NCBI GenBank assembly: GCA_027492935.1 | Contig: JAPUDU010000313.1 | Location: 1-36,953, forward strand | Direction of reading: 5' to 3' | Source: Fimbriimonadaceae bacterium | GTDB lineage: Bacteria; Armatimonadota; Fimbriimonadia; Fimbriimonadales; Fimbriimonadaceae | Length of the DNA: 36,953 bases | Shown: positions 14,285 to 24,476 of the stretch, one piece after another | How positions within the stretch are numbered: position 1 is the first letter of the stretch | How the letters are laid out: the number at the start of each line of letters is the position of its first letter | Notes under the pieces: model-generated | Databases searched by the model: none | Seen by the model: only the letters and a program-made list of their open reading frames with translations | Told to the model about the DNA's origin: nothing | Translations under genes and position numbers: made by a program

Positions 14285-14473
14285 TGTGAATTTAGTCCTG
14301 ATCCAATCACGAATCATCCGGCGGAGCCGGAGACGACTCGGAAAAAGAAGGGGCATGAAGCCCAACCTCTATGATACCTGTAACCAAATGGGACATTCTG
14401 CAGTTGCCGATTTTTATTTAATGGTGCGGAACAAAAGCAGATCGGCGATAGGTAGGGTTTTGTGGGAAGAAAG

Positions 14474-16447
14474 ATGAATAGAGGGATGCGGGCTTTGACA
14501 GCAATGGTGCTGGGAATTGTTATGTGCGGCGTGGCACTTGGGTCGGGAGAGACGTTTCCTGCACCAAGCTTAACCAAAGCACCTAGTTTAGATGGTGTGA
14601 TTGAGCCTGGCGAATGGGATGGCGCACTACATTTATCGGGTTTTACAGAGCAGCAATCGGGCAATAAGAATATTGATGATACTGATGCATGGGTAGGTGT
14701 GACGGAAGCGGGAATCTTTGTGGCGATTCATGCGCATGATTCACAGCCAGACAAGATTGTTGCGCGGACGATTCAGAAAGGGGCAACTTTGGAGAACGAC
14801 GACTTTATTGGGTTGATTATTGACCCGATGAATCGGAAGCGTGTTGTTGGTAACAGTCAGTTTTATGTGAATCCAATTGGTACGCAGGATGAAAACATTG
14901 CGGGCGGTCGGATTTCGAAGAAGGAATGGCGTGGAACTTGGATTTCGGCGGCAAAGCGGGTGGCTGATGGTTACATTGTTGAGATGATGGTGCCGTGGCG
15001 TTTACTTTCTTTTCCTGCAGGCAACAAAGGGGATGTGTTGTTTAATGTTGCACGGATTCAAGCGAGGACGAAGAATGGTTCGTATGCGATTGATCCGGGT
15101 CGACCGTTTCGGGTTGAGAATCATGGGACTTTGCTCGGCGTGCAGTTTCCGAAGCGCGATGTTGCGGATCAGTTAGATTTGCTTGGATATGTTTCACCTG
15201 AGTACGACGAGGATGAGAGCCCATCAAGCACACTCCGGGGCGGGTTTGACATACGTTATCGGCCAACGGAAACACTTAATACAGTATTGAGTGTAAGTCC
15301 TGACTTTAAAAACATTGAAGGGCAAGTTGAAGGGATTGGATTCACCCGGTCGGAGCGGTTTTTGAATGACACGCGGCCATTTTTTACGGAAGGAGCCCGC
15401 TATTTTGAGTTGACGGGAGGATTTGGGTTTGGCAATGCTTTTTACTCGAATCGGATTGATGATTTTGACCAGGGGTTCAAGTTTTTTGGTGATTTAAACA
15501 ACGCTCAGAGGCTTGGATTTTTGGTCAGTCGCGAGGATGGGAATAGACTCGATTCGGTTCTGCGATTTGGGCAGAACCTTGGGACGCGCAGTTCTTTTTC
15601 AATGTTCAGCACTTATCGAGATGAACCGGGCCGGAAGAGTTCGGTGGTTGGTGGAACGGCAGTTTATGGGACAGGTAACTATGAGTTTGGCCTTGAAACG
15701 GCTCATTCGGATGATGATGGGCAGCCCGGCTCTGCAAATCGAGTTTATGTTGACTACGACGCCCCCAATTATTTTCTAACAGGTACTGCTTACACGGTAC
15801 AGCCGGAGTTCCGAGCACGCTTGGGCTTTATCCCATTTGTTGATAAGCGCGGAGGATATATCTATCATGAGTACAACCGTAAGCTCAACGGATTTATCCG
15901 TGATTTTCATATGGATAACTCAATTGAAGACTTTGAGCACTTTAACGGAACCAATTTCAGTCGAGTGTTTAACATTGGAGCACGTATTGAAACGACCGAT
16001 GACTGGGCCTATGGGTTTAATTACGATAGGAATACGTTTGACAACGAAGTCTCTGAGCAGTGGACAGTTGGTGCAGGGTGGAACGTTTCTAATCCTTATA
16101 AGCAGATCAGTGTGAATTACAGTTGGGGGGATCAAGGCGGATATTACACCAGCTTTCTCTCACTAGCATCGCAGTTCCGGATTGGTAAAGGGATTGATCT
16201 TGGATTTCGCCAGTCGATTTTTAAGCTTGCGGGTAATCGAGAGCAATCGGTTGTGAGCTTGGGTTGGGAAATTGATCCTGAGCAGAGCTTGACGGGTCGG
16301 TATGTGAAGACAGGTCGCGATTCGAACTGGTATGTGGCTTACCGTAAATCGGGTGGCTTGGGGCTGGAATATTTCTTGATTTTTGGCGACCCAAATGCAA
16401 GGGAGTTTCGTAATCGGGCGGCGTTCAAGGTGGTTTGGGCGCGCTAA
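14474..16447 (+). CDS. outer-membrane protein with CBM9-like and DUF5916-like domains
   Basis: A 657-residue exported protein; signal peptide MNRGMRALTAMVLGIVMCGVALG. Residues about 35-210 look like the carbohydrate-binding family 9-like domain (APSLDGVIEPGEW opening; VEMMVPWRLLSFP; DVLFNVARIQ). The remainder resembles the DUF5916 beta-barrel, with the typical FLNDTRPFFTEGARYF motif and many alternating aromatic strands. The last residues (NRAAFKVVWAR) fit a barrel closing strand. Such proteins are common in Bacteroidota and related bacteria next to hydrolases; their substrate is unknown. I chose the ATG at 14474, preceded by GGGAAGAAAG; a GTG at 14462 is also in frame. Confidence 0.82.
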   Translation: MNRGMRALTAMVLGIVMCGVALGSGETFPAPSLTKAPSLDGVIEPGEWDGALHLSGFTEQQSGNKNIDDTDAWVGVTEAGIFVAIHAHDSQPDKIVARTIQKGATLENDDFIGLIIDPMNRKRVVGNSQFYVNPIGTQDENIAGGRISKKEWRGTWISAAKRVADGYIVEMMVPWRLLSFPAGNKGDVLFNVARIQARTKNGSYAIDPGRPFRVENHGTLLGVQFPKRDVADQLDLLGYVSPEYDEDESPSSTLRGGFDIRYRPTETLNTVLSVSPDFKNIEGQVEGIGFTRSERFLNDTRPFFTEGARYFELTGGFGFGNAFYSNRIDDFDQGFKFFGDLNNAQRLGFLVSREDGNRLDSVLRFGQNLGTRSSFSMFSTYRDEPGRKSSVVGGTAVYGTGNYEFGLETAHSDDDGQPGSANRVYVDYDAPNYFLTGTAYTVQPEFRARLGFIPFVDKRGGYIYHEYNRKLNGFIRDFHMDNSIEDFEHFNGTNFSRVFNIGARIETTDDWAYGFNYDRNTFDNEVSEQWTVGAGWNVSNPYKQISVNYSWGDQGGYYTSFLSLASQFRIGKGIDLGFRQSIFKLAGNREQSVVSLGWEIDPEQSLTGRYVKTGRDSNWYVAYRKSGGLGLEYFLIFGDPNAREFRNRAAFKVVWAR

Positions 16448-19609: not shown

Positions 19610-21466
19610 TTAAGCGTTGTCGATGTGATCCAAAGCAGCCATCAGATCCCTTGTTTGTTCAGGATCGGGATTTTGAGCTTTGATTGCCTCACGGATTTGC
19701 CCGGTTACTCGGCGTGACTCATCTGGGTTGCCAGCGTTTTTCGCGGCGGTTGCGTAGCTTACTGCGATAGGGAGGCTTTGATTCATGTTGCCGAAAGCGA
19801 CCTGCATGATTGCGAACGCTTCGTCGAATTTATCTTGTCCACCGAGTGCGTTGTTCAGCTCAACATAAGCTGGTTCACATGCGGGGAAAATTTCGAGCGT
19901 TCTGCGTGCTGCTTCTTCGGCTTCAACAAACTGTTCGAGTTGGTTGTGGCAACTTGCCAGGAGCATCCAGAGCTTCCAGTAGTCACCTAACCATTGCTTG
20001 AGCGGCTTGAGATCTTTGATTGCGGATTCAAAATCACCCGCTTCGGCTTTTTGTGATGCTTCCTTGACGACTTCAACGCGTTTAGGCTGTTCAATTTCAA
20101 GCATCCATGACATTGCATTGGCGGCAAGGTTTGGATCAGGGTTGCTACTCAGAATTGTTCTGAGGGTTTCGGGGACTTCAAATTCGCGGTTAGCTTTCGC
20201 TAGAGTTTGAGCATATTCCCAGAGGAGAGCATGATCTGTCGGAGCGACATCGATGCAGTCTTCGTAGAAGTCCATTGCGCGATCAATTTCTTCAGGGTCT
20301 TCGGCGAGTACCGGTGCATAGTAACGCTTGACATAAGTGTTATCTTCGAGCGTTTCGAGTGCAGTATCGAATGCTTTGATAGCTTCGTCGCGGCGGTTGT
20401 TTGCCATCAAGCTCATTGCATAGCGCGCGCGGGCTTTTGCGTTCTGAGGATCTTGGCGGATGATGTCGTTCCAGAGTTCAGGAACTTCGTGGACGCGTCC
20501 GGTTTGGGCGAGAACATCGCTGAGAAGATCAAGTGATGGCTTTTCGCCATCTTCCATATCAATTGCTTTTCGGAGGTTGCGCTCGGCGTTAACGGGCATA
20601 CCGAGGAAGAGTTGCATTCGCGCTAAGCGGTGGATGATTGCGGGCTCTTCTGGATCGAGTTGGCTGGCTTTTTCGTAGTTATCGGATGCGCCTTGAAGAT
20701 TGCCAATGGTTTCATAGAATTCGGCCAAAGTGAACCAACCGCGTGAGTCTTCGGGTTCAAGCTCGACCAGCTTCTTGAGAGTGCTTTCAACGAGTTGAGC
20801 ATCACCGATGCGCATTTGGAGGCAGTTTCGGCTAAGTTGAAGAAGAACCATAAATGGTGCTTCCCAGTCTCGATCTGCTTCGACGGCTTGGAGAAGGTAA
20901 TCGAAGTAGGGGCGAACATCCCACGTGCTTACGGTGTTGCCTTGTGATTGTTCAATGTAGCGAACGGCGTCGTAACCTTGAACGAACTTCATGAACGCTT
21001 CTGAATTATTGGTGCCGAATAACTCTTCGTCGCTGGGAAGTTCGGCTTCTTTGCCGTTTGCAGCTTTGATGAGGAATTGGATTGCACCTCGGAGGGCTTC
21101 AAAGACTCCGCCAGGGAGAAATGTGAATTCTTCGGTTTGGTATGGAGCGTCGGCATTTTCTCGCCAGGAACGGATGATGATGGTTCCGCCGCCGGATTTT
21201 TCGGTGAAAAGACCTTCGATGAGTGTGTCGATTTCAGCTTGACCTTTGAACTGCGCGATCATTTCGGCTTCGTTCAGGGTTTCGGCGGGGTTGATTAAAG
21301 CGACTTTGGGGACACCGTTCTCGTTGACCTGCGCCATGTAATTGGCAGCATTGATTTCGGCCTCTGTATGTTGGGCGGCGATTTCGACAATAAAATTGGA
21401 AAATTGTCGGGCGAGTTCGTGTCGGGTATCTGGCCCAGCGTTAAACGGCAGAACAGCGATTTGCAT
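19610..21466 (-). CDS. large TPR-repeat protein
   Basis: A 618-residue protein. The first 170 residues (MQIAVLPFNAGPDTRHELARQF opening) resemble a compact domain that senses or modulates, not a known enzyme. The rest is tetratricopeptide repeats, e.g. GWFTLAEFYETIGNLQGASDNYEKA and RARYAMSLMANNRRDEAIKAF, continuing to about residue 590. TPR arrays are protein-protein interaction scaffolds. No signal peptide is seen, so it is probably cytoplasmic. A strong terminator follows. The neighbours do not indicate a partner. Confidence 0.8.
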   Translation of the reverse strand: MQIAVLPFNAGPDTRHELARQFSNFIVEIAAQHTEAEINAANYMAQVNENGVPKVALINPAETLNEAEMIAQFKGQAEIDTLIEGLFTEKSGGGTIIIRSWRENADAPYQTEEFTFLPGGVFEALRGAIQFLIKAANGKEAELPSDEELFGTNNSEAFMKFVQGYDAVRYIEQSQGNTVSTWDVRPYFDYLLQAVEADRDWEAPFMVLLQLSRNCLQMRIGDAQLVESTLKKLVELEPEDSRGWFTLAEFYETIGNLQGASDNYEKASQLDPEEPAIIHRLARMQLFLGMPVNAERNLRKAIDMEDGEKPSLDLLSDVLAQTGRVHEVPELWNDIIRQDPQNAKARARYAMSLMANNRRDEAIKAFDTALETLEDNTYVKRYYAPVLAEDPEEIDRAMDFYEDCIDVAPTDHALLWEYAQTLAKANREFEVPETLRTILSSNPDPNLAANAMSWMLEIEQPKRVEVVKEASQKAEAGDFESAIKDLKPLKQWLGDYWKLWMLLASCHNQLEQFVEAEEAARRTLEIFPACEPAYVELNNALGGQDKFDEAFAIMQVAFGNMNQSLPIAVSYATAAKNAGNPDESRRVTGQIREAIKAQNPDPEQTRDLMAALDHIDNA

Positions 21467-21664: not shown

Positions 21665-23512
21665 ATGATTGATCGCAAAGCAAGACTTTTTTTGATATTG
21701 AGTTTTGTACTCATTTCATTTGGTGTGTGGGGGTGTGGCGGCGGTTCGGGTGGAGATTTGCAACTGCCTCCCTCTCTTCCTTATTCCGTTCAAGAAGCAG
21801 CAATGCAGACGGTTCGTGATGAGTTGTCGACGTCTGGCATTACAGTTGAGAATTTCGCTGACAAAGTAGATGGTTTTGTTGCGGCGATGAGGGCAACAGG
21901 AAAATTCAGTGAAGTTGGATTTGAGAAAATAGAAGGCCAGTTGATTTGGATGACATTATCTGATGGCGTTCAGTTTGTTATTCCGTTTGACCGCAATGCG
22001 GCAGGCTCCGCGCCACCTGATTCGCGTTTTGAGAATTTGTCGGGGCGGGCAGCGAGTGGATTTCCGGGAGCGAGCAAGTCGGCATTACTGTATACGTTTG
22101 TTGATTCGAGTTATCTCAATGCTACGGGCTCAGTACGTCCTTTCTTGGAAGAGCCTGGTTATACACCTGTTACTGAGGGCGCGCAGTATTTAGATGGCTC
22201 TTTGGATGATTTTGAGAAGTTACAGGATGTCGGACTGCTTTATATTGATGGTCATGGCGTGGAGCTTTTCCCAACGACGCCTTTGAATCCGGGTCGGAAG
22301 CTATGGCTTTATTTAGCGACTTCGACAGAACCAACTGAAGAATTGAAGGAAGCTCGCCTCGAAGACTTTCAGACTAAGCGATTAATCATTGGTTTTGAAC
22401 CTAGAAATGGGAAAGCACTTGTTTTGATGTCGCATTTGTACGTAAAGGATCACGTGAAGTTAGGAAGTAAGAGTCTTGTTTTTATTAACACTTGTTACAA
22501 CGGAAAGACTAGCTTAATGGCAGATGCGTTGATTGCAAATGGGGCAGGAACGGTTTTGGGATGGAGTCGGCGTGTTGAGGACGACGATGCTTATGCTTCA
22601 GGGTTGTTTTTCTTTGACAAATTGATTGGGCTCCGTGAGTTAATTCCCAGTGCTCATGGATCGACCGATCCGAGTTGGCCCAATTTGATTTCTGAGACTT
22701 ATACGGCGATGCAGACGACGAAACGGCCGGGGCTGAATTATGAGTTTGATACAGACAAGTTCGGGGCGAAGTTGAGGATGTTTTCGGCGAGTGATTCGCC
22801 GGCGATGATTCGGCCTTCGATTCGTACTGTGACTTACGATTCGGATCAGGCAACGATTACGCTATTTGGGAGATTTGGATCAACTCCGGGCGTTGTGATT
22901 GGGAATCCAGATTCTACGGCGGTGAATTTGCCGATCAAGCTTTGGACGGACAGTGAGATTCGGCTTGATTATGTGAGTGGGGTTACGGAAGTGGTTGTTG
23001 ATAACAGTTCATTTATGAGTAATCGGGCGATGTTACCGACTGGAGAATTTACATTTGCTGAGGAGTCGATTCCGAACGGCCAGTATCAGATGTTGATTTC
23101 GCATATCGATATTCCAAAACATGCATTAGCGAGGGGCGTTATAGGAGTGACGTTGATCGTCGATGGTGCGGATAAGTTCAAATACGCCGTTGGTTTCCCC
23201 GTTGCATCGGCTCCGCTGCCGCTCACGACCACTTTAAGTCAGAACTATTTGATACCGAGTTCGTATATTGTCACGAGCCTTGACAGCGGCACATACAATT
23301 TCCCGAGTCTTTATCAAGGTTATCCTTTGGTTTACGATTGTGGAGATCGGTTGGTTGTTGTTATTAAGCGGGCGTCTTATGGCGGGAACTCAGGTGCGAC
23401 ATTGGCTGATGCACAGAATTCGTTACACGCCTTCACTGATCGGGTGAAGCTCAGGATTACGAAGAGTTTGTTCAGCCCGGTGAATTCAAGTACGACCTTT
23501 TTGGCCCCGTAA
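21665..23512 (+). CDS. lipoprotein with caspase/CHAT-like (clan CD) signature
   Basis: A 615-residue predicted lipoprotein (VWGC, lipidated cysteine C24). Residues about 180-310 show a hydrophobic strand ending in a histidine (LLYIDGHG, H197). Eighty residues later comes a strand ending in a cysteine (SLVFINTCYNG, C277), followed by LIANGAGTVLGWSR. This His/Cys pair after strands is the signature of clan CD cysteine peptidases (caspase, gingipain, CHAT). A later segment (about 380-465, ITLFGRFGSTPGVVIGN, LWTDSEIRLDY) resembles an IPT/TIG immunoglobulin-like fold. The combination suggests an envelope-anchored protease or a degenerate relative; substrate and activity are unknown. A strong hairpin terminator follows. 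Confidence 0.75.
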   Translation: MIDRKARLFLILSFVLISFGVWGCGGGSGGDLQLPPSLPYSVQEAAMQTVRDELSTSGITVENFADKVDGFVAAMRATGKFSEVGFEKIEGQLIWMTLSDGVQFVIPFDRNAAGSAPPDSRFENLSGRAASGFPGASKSALLYTFVDSSYLNATGSVRPFLEEPGYTPVTEGAQYLDGSLDDFEKLQDVGLLYIDGHGVELFPTTPLNPGRKLWLYLATSTEPTEELKEARLEDFQTKRLIIGFEPRNGKALVLMSHLYVKDHVKLGSKSLVFINTCYNGKTSLMADALIANGAGTVLGWSRRVEDDDAYASGLFFFDKLIGLRELIPSAHGSTDPSWPNLISETYTAMQTTKRPGLNYEFDTDKFGAKLRMFSASDSPAMIRPSIRTVTYDSDQATITLFGRFGSTPGVVIGNPDSTAVNLPIKLWTDSEIRLDYVSGVTEVVVDNSSFMSNRAMLPTGEFTFAEESIPNGQYQMLISHIDIPKHALARGVIGVTLIVDGADKFKYAVGFPVASAPLPLTTTLSQNYLIPSSYIVTSLDSGTYNFPSLYQGYPLVYDCGDRLVVVIKRASYGGNSGATLADAQNSLHAFTDRVKLRITKSLFSPVNSSTTFLAP

Positions 23513-23525
23513 CAGTGAGTGAAAG

Positions 23526-23559
23526 AGCCGAGCGGGAGGGGAGCGCTCGGCTTTGTTTT
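23526..23559 (+). terminator. intrinsic terminator after the caspase-like gene
   Basis: AGCCGAGCG (23526-23534) and CGCTCGGCT (23544-23552) form a 9-bp perfect stem with a 9-base loop, followed by TTGTTTT. It ends at the 3' end of the converging DinB gene and may also serve that strand. Confidence 0.75.
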
Positions 23560-24025
23560 ACGAGTTTTGTGGCTTGACGAGGAGAAAGAGTTGGCGAATC
23601 GCGCCGAGGTGGTAAGCAATGTGACCAACATTGGCTATCGCTCCGAATATATTTTCTTGCTCTCCCAAATCTTTGTCATCCAGGAGCATGCAGAATAGTT
23701 CGACTTGGGAAATGAGCTTGGCTTGTTCTTCTTGAAACTCCTCTTCTGTAACGGTTTGTTTCGCCCAACTTTGAGCCCAATCGGCGGTTGGCGTGCGGCC
23801 ATGCATGTATTCGAGGCTGAACCAGAGATAGTAGTTGGTGTGGATGAGATGGGCAGCGATGGAGTTGACGTTGGGAGCAATTTGACAGGATGCTTCTTCA
23901 GCGGTGAGATTTTTGAGGGTTGACCGGAGGGCTTCGCCGCCTTGAACAAAGTAAGTACCGGATTCACCGGGCGCGCATCCTTCGAGCACTTCGGTGATCA
24001 TGAATTTGATTGCTTCTTTAGTCAT
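23558..24025 (-). CDS. DinB-superfamily protein, second of a tandem pair
   Basis: A 155-residue four-helix-bundle protein of the DinB/YfiT-like superfamily. The segment SIAAHLIHTNYYLWFSLEYM near residue 50 and the C-terminal VGHIAYHLGAIRQL (about 130-143) contain the histidines that form the metal site in this family. Some members are metal-dependent thiol S-transferases; most are uncharacterised. Its ATG overlaps the stop of the upstream DinB gene by 8 bases (ATGACTAA shared), so they are translationally coupled. The two proteins share several motifs, indicating a tandem duplication. Confidence 0.85.
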   Translation of the reverse strand: MTKEAIKFMITEVLEGCAPGESGTYFVQGGEALRSTLKNLTAEEASCQIAPNVNSIAAHLIHTNYYLWFSLEYMHGRTPTADWAQSWAKQTVTEEEFQEEQAKLISQVELFCMLLDDKDLGEQENIFGAIANVGHIAYHLGAIRQLFLLVKPQNS

Positions 24026-24476
24026 GCTTAACTATACGCGCAAGTTGTCGGATTGCGCCGAGATGATATGAGAGGTGGCAGAGATTGGCGATGGTTTCGA
24101 CGAGAGGCCATTTTTGTTCGAGAGGAACGTGGTTGAGGAGGTTTGTGAACTGCTCGGCTTGGGTTTGGAGTTTTTGAATTTCGGCATTGTATTCGTCTTC
24201 GGAGATTATTTGTTTTGCCCAAGTGCCGGGCCAATCGTAGGCGGGTTCTTGTTGTTTGAATGTTGCGATGGTGTAACCGAGATAGGCGTTGAGGTGGATG
24301 AGGTTGGCGGCGATGGAATCGAGGTTTTGGGGTTGTTGGGAAGCTTGTTCGGGGGTGAGGGATTGGAGGGTGGCAATGAGGGCTTGATCGCCTTCGAGGA
24401 ATGTGGTTCCTTCGTTGCTGGTGGTGGTTCCGTAGAGGATTTCGGTGAGGAGGAACGCGATGGCTTCGCTGGTCAT
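24018..24476 (-). CDS. DinB-superfamily protein, first of a tandem pair
   Basis: A 152-residue paralogue of its downstream neighbour. Matching segments are SIAANLIHLNAYLGYTIATF and LCHLSYHLGAIRQL, with the family's metal-binding histidines. Length and helical periodicity fit the DinB fold. The start has no clear Shine-Dalgarno. Upstream lies a cluster of GATCACTT/AAGTGATC octamers (24523-24581) that could be its operator. Function is unknown; the coupled pair might form a heterodimer, since many DinB proteins are dimeric. Confidence 0.83.
   Translation of the reverse strand: MTSEAIAFLLTEILYGTTTSNEGTTFLEGDQALIATLQSLTPEQASQQPQNLDSIAANLIHLNAYLGYTIATFKQQEPAYDWPGTWAKQIISEDEYNAEIQKLQTQAEQFTNLLNHVPLEQKWPLVETIANLCHLSYHLGAIRQLARIVKHD

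Follow-up and report, generated by a model that had tools for sequence, protein, structure and literature searches.

The open reading frame at positions 21665-23512 of the window (the whole 36,953-nucleotide stretch of DNA analysed here; + strand, 615 aa, start codon ATG) quite likely encodes a lipid-anchored envelope protein, in which a His-Cys peptidase core of the caspase-like type (clan CD) is followed by an IPT/TIG-like domain and a C-terminal region, as judged from sequence comparison. The family has no Pfam match, and its combination of a C14-like core with a lipid anchor, a long insert between His and Cys and a TIG-like domain is new as far as our searches reach. Among the matches listed for the open-access literature, judged by title and the start of the abstract, there was no such Armatimonadota family of lipid-anchored caspases or metacaspases.

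Distribution, selection and gene neighbourhood

The host genome is armatimonadote. Relatives were found in 26 of 291 Armatimonadota genomes by single-protein search, its own genome counted, and in 37 of the 291 (53 matches) by searching with a profile of the core. Neither the viral contigs, scanned with three relatives, nor the plasmids, searched by tblastn, contained a relative. Full-length orthologs with 74-75% identity are encoded in CP021423 (Armatimonadetes bacterium Uphvl-Ar1) and PNMZ01000007, and 13 of the 16 window genes compared, this ORF counted, were present in both ortholog loci. The ORF is under purifying selection, with dN/dS values of about 0.08-0.15 among the window gene and the two orthologs (L001 and L002); since synonymous sites are near saturation in the comparisons with the window, the value for L001 and L002 (0.147) deserves more trust. 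Between the window gene and the orthologs, the core and the next 30 residues changed least (dN of the core 0.10-0.12) and the C-terminal region (residues 466-615, positions 23060-23509, + strand) diverged most (dN 0.40-0.41); between L001 and L002, by contrast, the C-terminal region had the lowest dN (0.024).

A divergent gene encoding a TPR protein (19610-21466) lies upstream, and the other flank is occupied by two small adjacent DinB-like genes (23558-24476), of whose DinB_2 matches one was above and one under the Pfam cut-off. This pair, as well as a 661-aa ORF further upstream (14462-16447), was found in neither of the syntenic ortholog loci. The remaining window genes with a Pfam match are mainly metabolic, DNA-repair, regulatory and motility genes, and 5 of the 28 other window proteins scanned had no Pfam match at E 0.01. 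Across 22 family loci we found one recurrent neighbour, present at four of them. This protein of 456-468 aa is encoded divergently and upstream at L181, L184 and L191 and downstream at L178; its Trans_reg_C match was above the cut-off in one of the first three and below it in two, and there was no match at L178. It was not adopted as a functional link for the window gene, whose own divergent neighbour is the TPR protein.

Predicted lipid anchor, His-Cys core and TIG-like domain

Residues 1-24 (MIDRKARLFLILSFVLISFGVWG followed by C) resemble a lipoprotein signal, with a basic N-terminus, a hydrophobic stretch and a lipobox Cys. The predicted Sec-type signal peptide with its lipobox (residues 1-23, positions 21665-21733; + strand, as for all features below) ends in V-W-G before Cys24 (21734-21736), the predicted lipidation site, which has Gly at +2. 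In an alignment of 27 family sequences, G23 and C24 each reach a conservation of 90% or more. Trp at -2 is unusual in a lipobox and was weighed against our preferred reading. A simple lipoprotein rule was passed by 19 of 28 family sequences without Trp at -2 and by 21 of 28 with Trp allowed, but this rule is crude, and some of the members that it misses (e.g., L020 and L021) show a lipobox by eye. Two members, L030 and L032, carry twin-arginine-like signals (RR-x-F-L), one with and one without a lipobox. From these features, the protein is probably membrane-anchored. Lipoproteins are processed by Lgt and LspA, and Gly after the Cys goes along with sorting to the outer membrane. An outer membrane is likely here, since the genome contains an Omp85 gene and diderm gene families are reported for Fimbriimonas in a passage of PMC4072686.

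An N-terminal region with a conserved 'DG' stretch in the family alignment and no Pfam match (residues 40-127, 21782-22045) leads into the putative caspase-like core (residues 128-350, 22046-22714). Here, the order of elements is that of clan CD, His then Cys, with a hydrophobic, strand-like stretch before each of them (GLLYIDG before H197, KSLVFINT before C277) and a Gly following the His. His197-Gly198 (22253-22258) contains the predicted catalytic His, Cys277 (22493-22495) is the predicted nucleophile, and Gly299-Trp300 (22559-22564) forms a GW downstream of the Cys strand. These residues belong to the 13 columns with at least 90% conservation in the 27-sequence alignment (G23, C24, H197, G198, C277, G299, W300, G322, P384, I386, G402, G405 and S452). 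The Gly after the His is not universal, as it is replaced by Ala in L012 and by Ser in L065. AlphaFold, given three closely related sequences as input, returned a mean pLDDT of 33.3 for the whole protein and of 30.1 for residues 125-350.

Both His and Cys are kept in 48 of the 51 family genes that cover the core. For this, every one of the 53 matches of the core profile was read. The number is made up of 37 loci, 34 of them with H and C, which correspond to 32 of 35 genes because two locus pairs share an identical protein, and of 17 further places, 16 of which have H and C, while L242 is a fragment that lacks the core. Together with the 74-75% identical orthologs and the low dN/dS, this conservation takes the observation beyond chance. 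The three exceptions have each lost both residues. L014 (G007:C1:1763754-1765070) and L015 (G006:C3:185120-186433) are paralogs with an uninterrupted frame in which the His is replaced by Leu and the Cys by Met, and their genomes, G007 and G006, each encode one H/C copy and one L/M copy. In L064 (G136:C1:88243-89175), Tyr and Ser replace the catalytic His and Cys, the swap known from pseudo-orthocaspases, where it is the commonest substitution according to a passage of PMC6426788.

Asn275 (22487-22489), two residues before the Cys, is the predicted S1-pocket position. Among the 27 members, this position is held by N (18), Q (3), D (2), S (2) or E (2), the two E cases being the L/M copies. The analogy is to a caspase with Gln184 and Cys186, which we take to be caspase-7. 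There, as stated in a passage of PMC4357240, P1 is in contact with the residue at the same position, two before the Cys of the active site, and C11 enzymes, with the motif His-Gly-(X)n-Ala-Cys, are described as Arg-specific in a section of PMC12445089. The Asn therefore suggests a neutral-polar P1 pocket in the query, unlike that of the Arg-specific C11 enzymes. His and Cys are separated by 78-103 residues in the family, compared with 42 in the caspase just mentioned, 46 in PmC11 and 49 in MARTX-CPD (from the residue numbering in PMC4357240), which points to an insert between the His and Cys elements. This long spacing, too, was weighed against the preferred reading.

The core is followed by the IPT/TIG-like domain (residues 381-465, 22805-23059), which contains the conserved P384, I386, G402, G405 and S452. 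Compared with the PDB, the family profile matched amylase/CGTase entries, best 1qho with E 1.4e-7 over profile positions 383-454, a region that presumably corresponds to their IPT/TIG-type domain. An 'IPT/TIG domain-containing protein' (8co1) matched more weakly (E 0.084). Pfam TIG (PF01833) was the commonest weak match, found in 6 of 27 members with a best E of 4e-4, the query itself being without one. A first-pass annotation of this DNA had proposed a lipidated N-terminus, a His-197/Cys-277 pair placed after hydrophobic strands and an IPT/TIG-like domain, and all three agree with the family-wide evidence.

Relationship to C14 and other clan CD families

The query had no match at E up to 10 in Pfam-A and NCBIfam and no relevant match in a sequence search of the PDB. 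None of the 27 family members was matched by a clan CD Pfam family at E up to 1, and this included PF00656 (Peptidase_C14), PF12770 (CHAT), PF01364 (C25) and PF03415 (C11), each with 0 of 27. The family lies outside the coverage of the reference library searched and shows what appears to be a caspase-type active-site pattern.

Profiles were built from Armatimonadota sequences of C14 (26 sequences), CHAT (28), C25 (27) and C11 (28), with response regulators (15) as control. After broken, partial and some weak sequences had been dropped, 28 of 30 loci were used for CHAT, 27 of 30 for C25, 28 of 30 for C11 and 15 of 19 for response regulators; the C14 profile came from 24 of 29 new loci and two of three places in the query's own genome (G000). 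The latter are located at C253:5392-6213, C253:1761-2468 and C172:9117-9764, i.e., two of them share one contig, and the gene studied here is not among them. The same genome has one C11 gene (C206:4323-5444).

By hhalign, the family profile aligned to C14 with a probability of 86.5% (P 4.6e-6, score 47.6), and the scores were 22.7 for CHAT, 24.5 for C25, 20.7 for C11 and 23.8 for the response-regulator control. Only in the His region (profile columns 110-159) is the C14 alignment confident; in the extended alignment, the family His falls on the HG of C14 and the family NaC on the C14 DaC. The observed scores were never reached by column-permuted profiles (100 each for C14, CHAT and C25; permuted maximum for C14 19.1), a null that is easy to beat. 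A stricter null consisted of 267 translations of neighbouring non-family ORFs, some of which may not be real genes and among which orthologs recur; it gave a median score of 13.5 and a maximum of 25.7. Against this, C14 domains taken as single sequences reached a median of 23.5, with 7 of 26 above the null maximum, 20 of 26 above the 95th percentile and an AUC of 0.95. The AUC was 0.71-0.74 for CHAT, C25 and C11 domains (1, 0 and 0 above the null maximum, respectively) and 0.66 for response regulators. Because the CHAT, C25 and C11 profiles scored about like the control, we used only C14 as positive evidence. The first-pass annotation, which had called the protein caspase/CHAT-like and suggested HMM searches against C14, C25 and CHAT, is supported as far as C14 is concerned, by profile alignment and register, and not for CHAT and C25; the clan CD Pfam models themselves found none of the 27 members, and it was hhalign that recovered C14.

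The family thus shares with C14 the strand-HG and strand-xxC elements, in register by profile alignment, and with the orthocaspases a Y/S pseudo-variant, as covered in a passage of PMC6426788. It differs from C14 in being without a PF00656 match, in its longer His-Cys spacing, in having mostly N or Q two before the Cys, and in the predicted lipid anchor and the IPT/TIG-like domain; of the Armatimonadota C14 proteins, 0 of 26 looked lipidated (3 of them with a cut start). The best alignment to CHAT pairs its ATHG and LSAC with the family HG and C and has a GA stretch afterwards, yet it scored below the control. For C25, which was found in 44 of 201 genomes of the phylum, the local alignment takes in the Cys strand and the GA..G stretch after it, but its score is close to the control and the His region lies outside it. 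The alignment to C11 is out of register, and Asn-Thr precedes the Cys where C11 has Ala.

The closest parallel for the anchor is nevertheless found in C11. The Bacteroidales C11 proteases fragipain and DpnB are surface lipoproteins according to a passage of PMC11169675, so that clan CD-type proteins made as lipoproteins are on record, with surface exposure known for C11; a passage of PMC3501461 also mentions prokaryotic metacaspases that have extracellular domains or a helix at the N-terminus. Within Armatimonadota, where C11 genes occurred in 110 of the 151 genomes searched, the simple rule recognized a lipoprotein-like N-terminus in 19 of 28 C11 sequences (among loci L196-L225), 0 of 26 C14 sequences and 1 of 27 C25 sequences, the ORF start being cut in 1, 3 and 5 of these, respectively. 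The corresponding count for CHAT, 0 of 28, carries no information, as 27 of these sequences had a cut start. With Bacteroidales C11 surface lipoproteins described in the cited passage and most phylum C11 proteins tested by the rule looking lipidated, the earlier view of a membrane-tethered caspase-type protease as something unusual is too strong.

Alternative readings and a possible role in the envelope

Not every protein with a caspase-like fold need be a protease. The family could consist of lipid-anchored binding or scaffold proteins, with a structural or sensing role for His and Cys, and the same may be true of pseudo-orthocaspases. L014 and L015, which are without both residues while their frames are uninterrupted and their genomes also contain an H/C copy, would fit this, and so would the Y/S pair of L064 and the TIG-like domain, as TIG is a binding-type domain. 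However, we consider it unlikely, given that both residues are retained in nearly all genes covering the core, and that the exceptions lose the two together, as expected for a catalytic pair. Distinctly less probable still is an unrelated alpha/beta secreted lipoprotein whose likeness to clan CD in HG and C is due to convergence or chance. The C14 score, far above the permuted profiles and above real proteins, the register of both residues in the extended C14 alignment and the existence of a Y/S variant all argue against it, even though the core is without a Pfam or PDB sequence match and the AlphaFold pLDDT values of 33 and 30 would be compatible with such a protein.

The first-pass annotation had further considered programmed death or prey attack. 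Surface or fratricidal roles have been raised for prokaryotic metacaspases with N-terminal helices (in a passage of PMC3501461), and an executioner that acts in the envelope, in programmed death or against neighbouring cells, could be seen along these lines. The genomic context lends this no support: the Pfam matches of the 28 other window proteins, five of them without a match at E 0.01, include no toxin, immunity or defence gene, the matched genes serve mainly metabolism, DNA repair, regulation and motility, and across the 22 loci nothing recurs save the one protein found at four. We regard this role as highly improbable.

As a lipid-anchored His-Cys peptidase, the reading that we prefer, the protein would be processed by Lgt and LspA at Cys24 and displayed on the outer membrane, as the conserved lipobox, the Omp85 gene and the Gly at +2 suggest. 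His197 would activate Cys277 as a thiol nucleophile, and a neutral-polar P1 pocket is more likely than a basic-specific one of the kind seen in C11 and orthocaspases. The substrate may be held or presented by the TIG and C-terminal regions, and the long His-Cys insert may gate access or be self-cleaved. Fragipain activates secreted protoxins, as described in a passage of PMC8406203, and we argue from this enzyme that the substrates could be exported or surface proteins that are processed in a similar way.

A broader proposal is tentative and may well prove wrong in this form: that these proteins constitute a separate Armatimonadota clan CD family of lipid-anchored envelope caspase homologs for which the library searched has no Pfam model, characterized by a neutral P1 pocket, a His-Cys insert that gates or is cleaved for activation, and a TIG domain; that some members have turned into pseudo-enzymes, with at least one change to L/M and one to Y/S; and that in G006 and G007 the active copy may be under the control of the L/M copy.

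If the preferred reading is right, this little-studied phylum would have a caspase-like peptidase family on the envelope side of its membrane, and the conversion into a lipoprotein would have affected a C14-type core and not C11 alone. C277, N275 and the His-Cys insert would then provide a sharp test case for changes in clan CD specificity, and the pairs of active and inactive copies within one genome would offer a way into the roles of caspase pseudo-enzymes.
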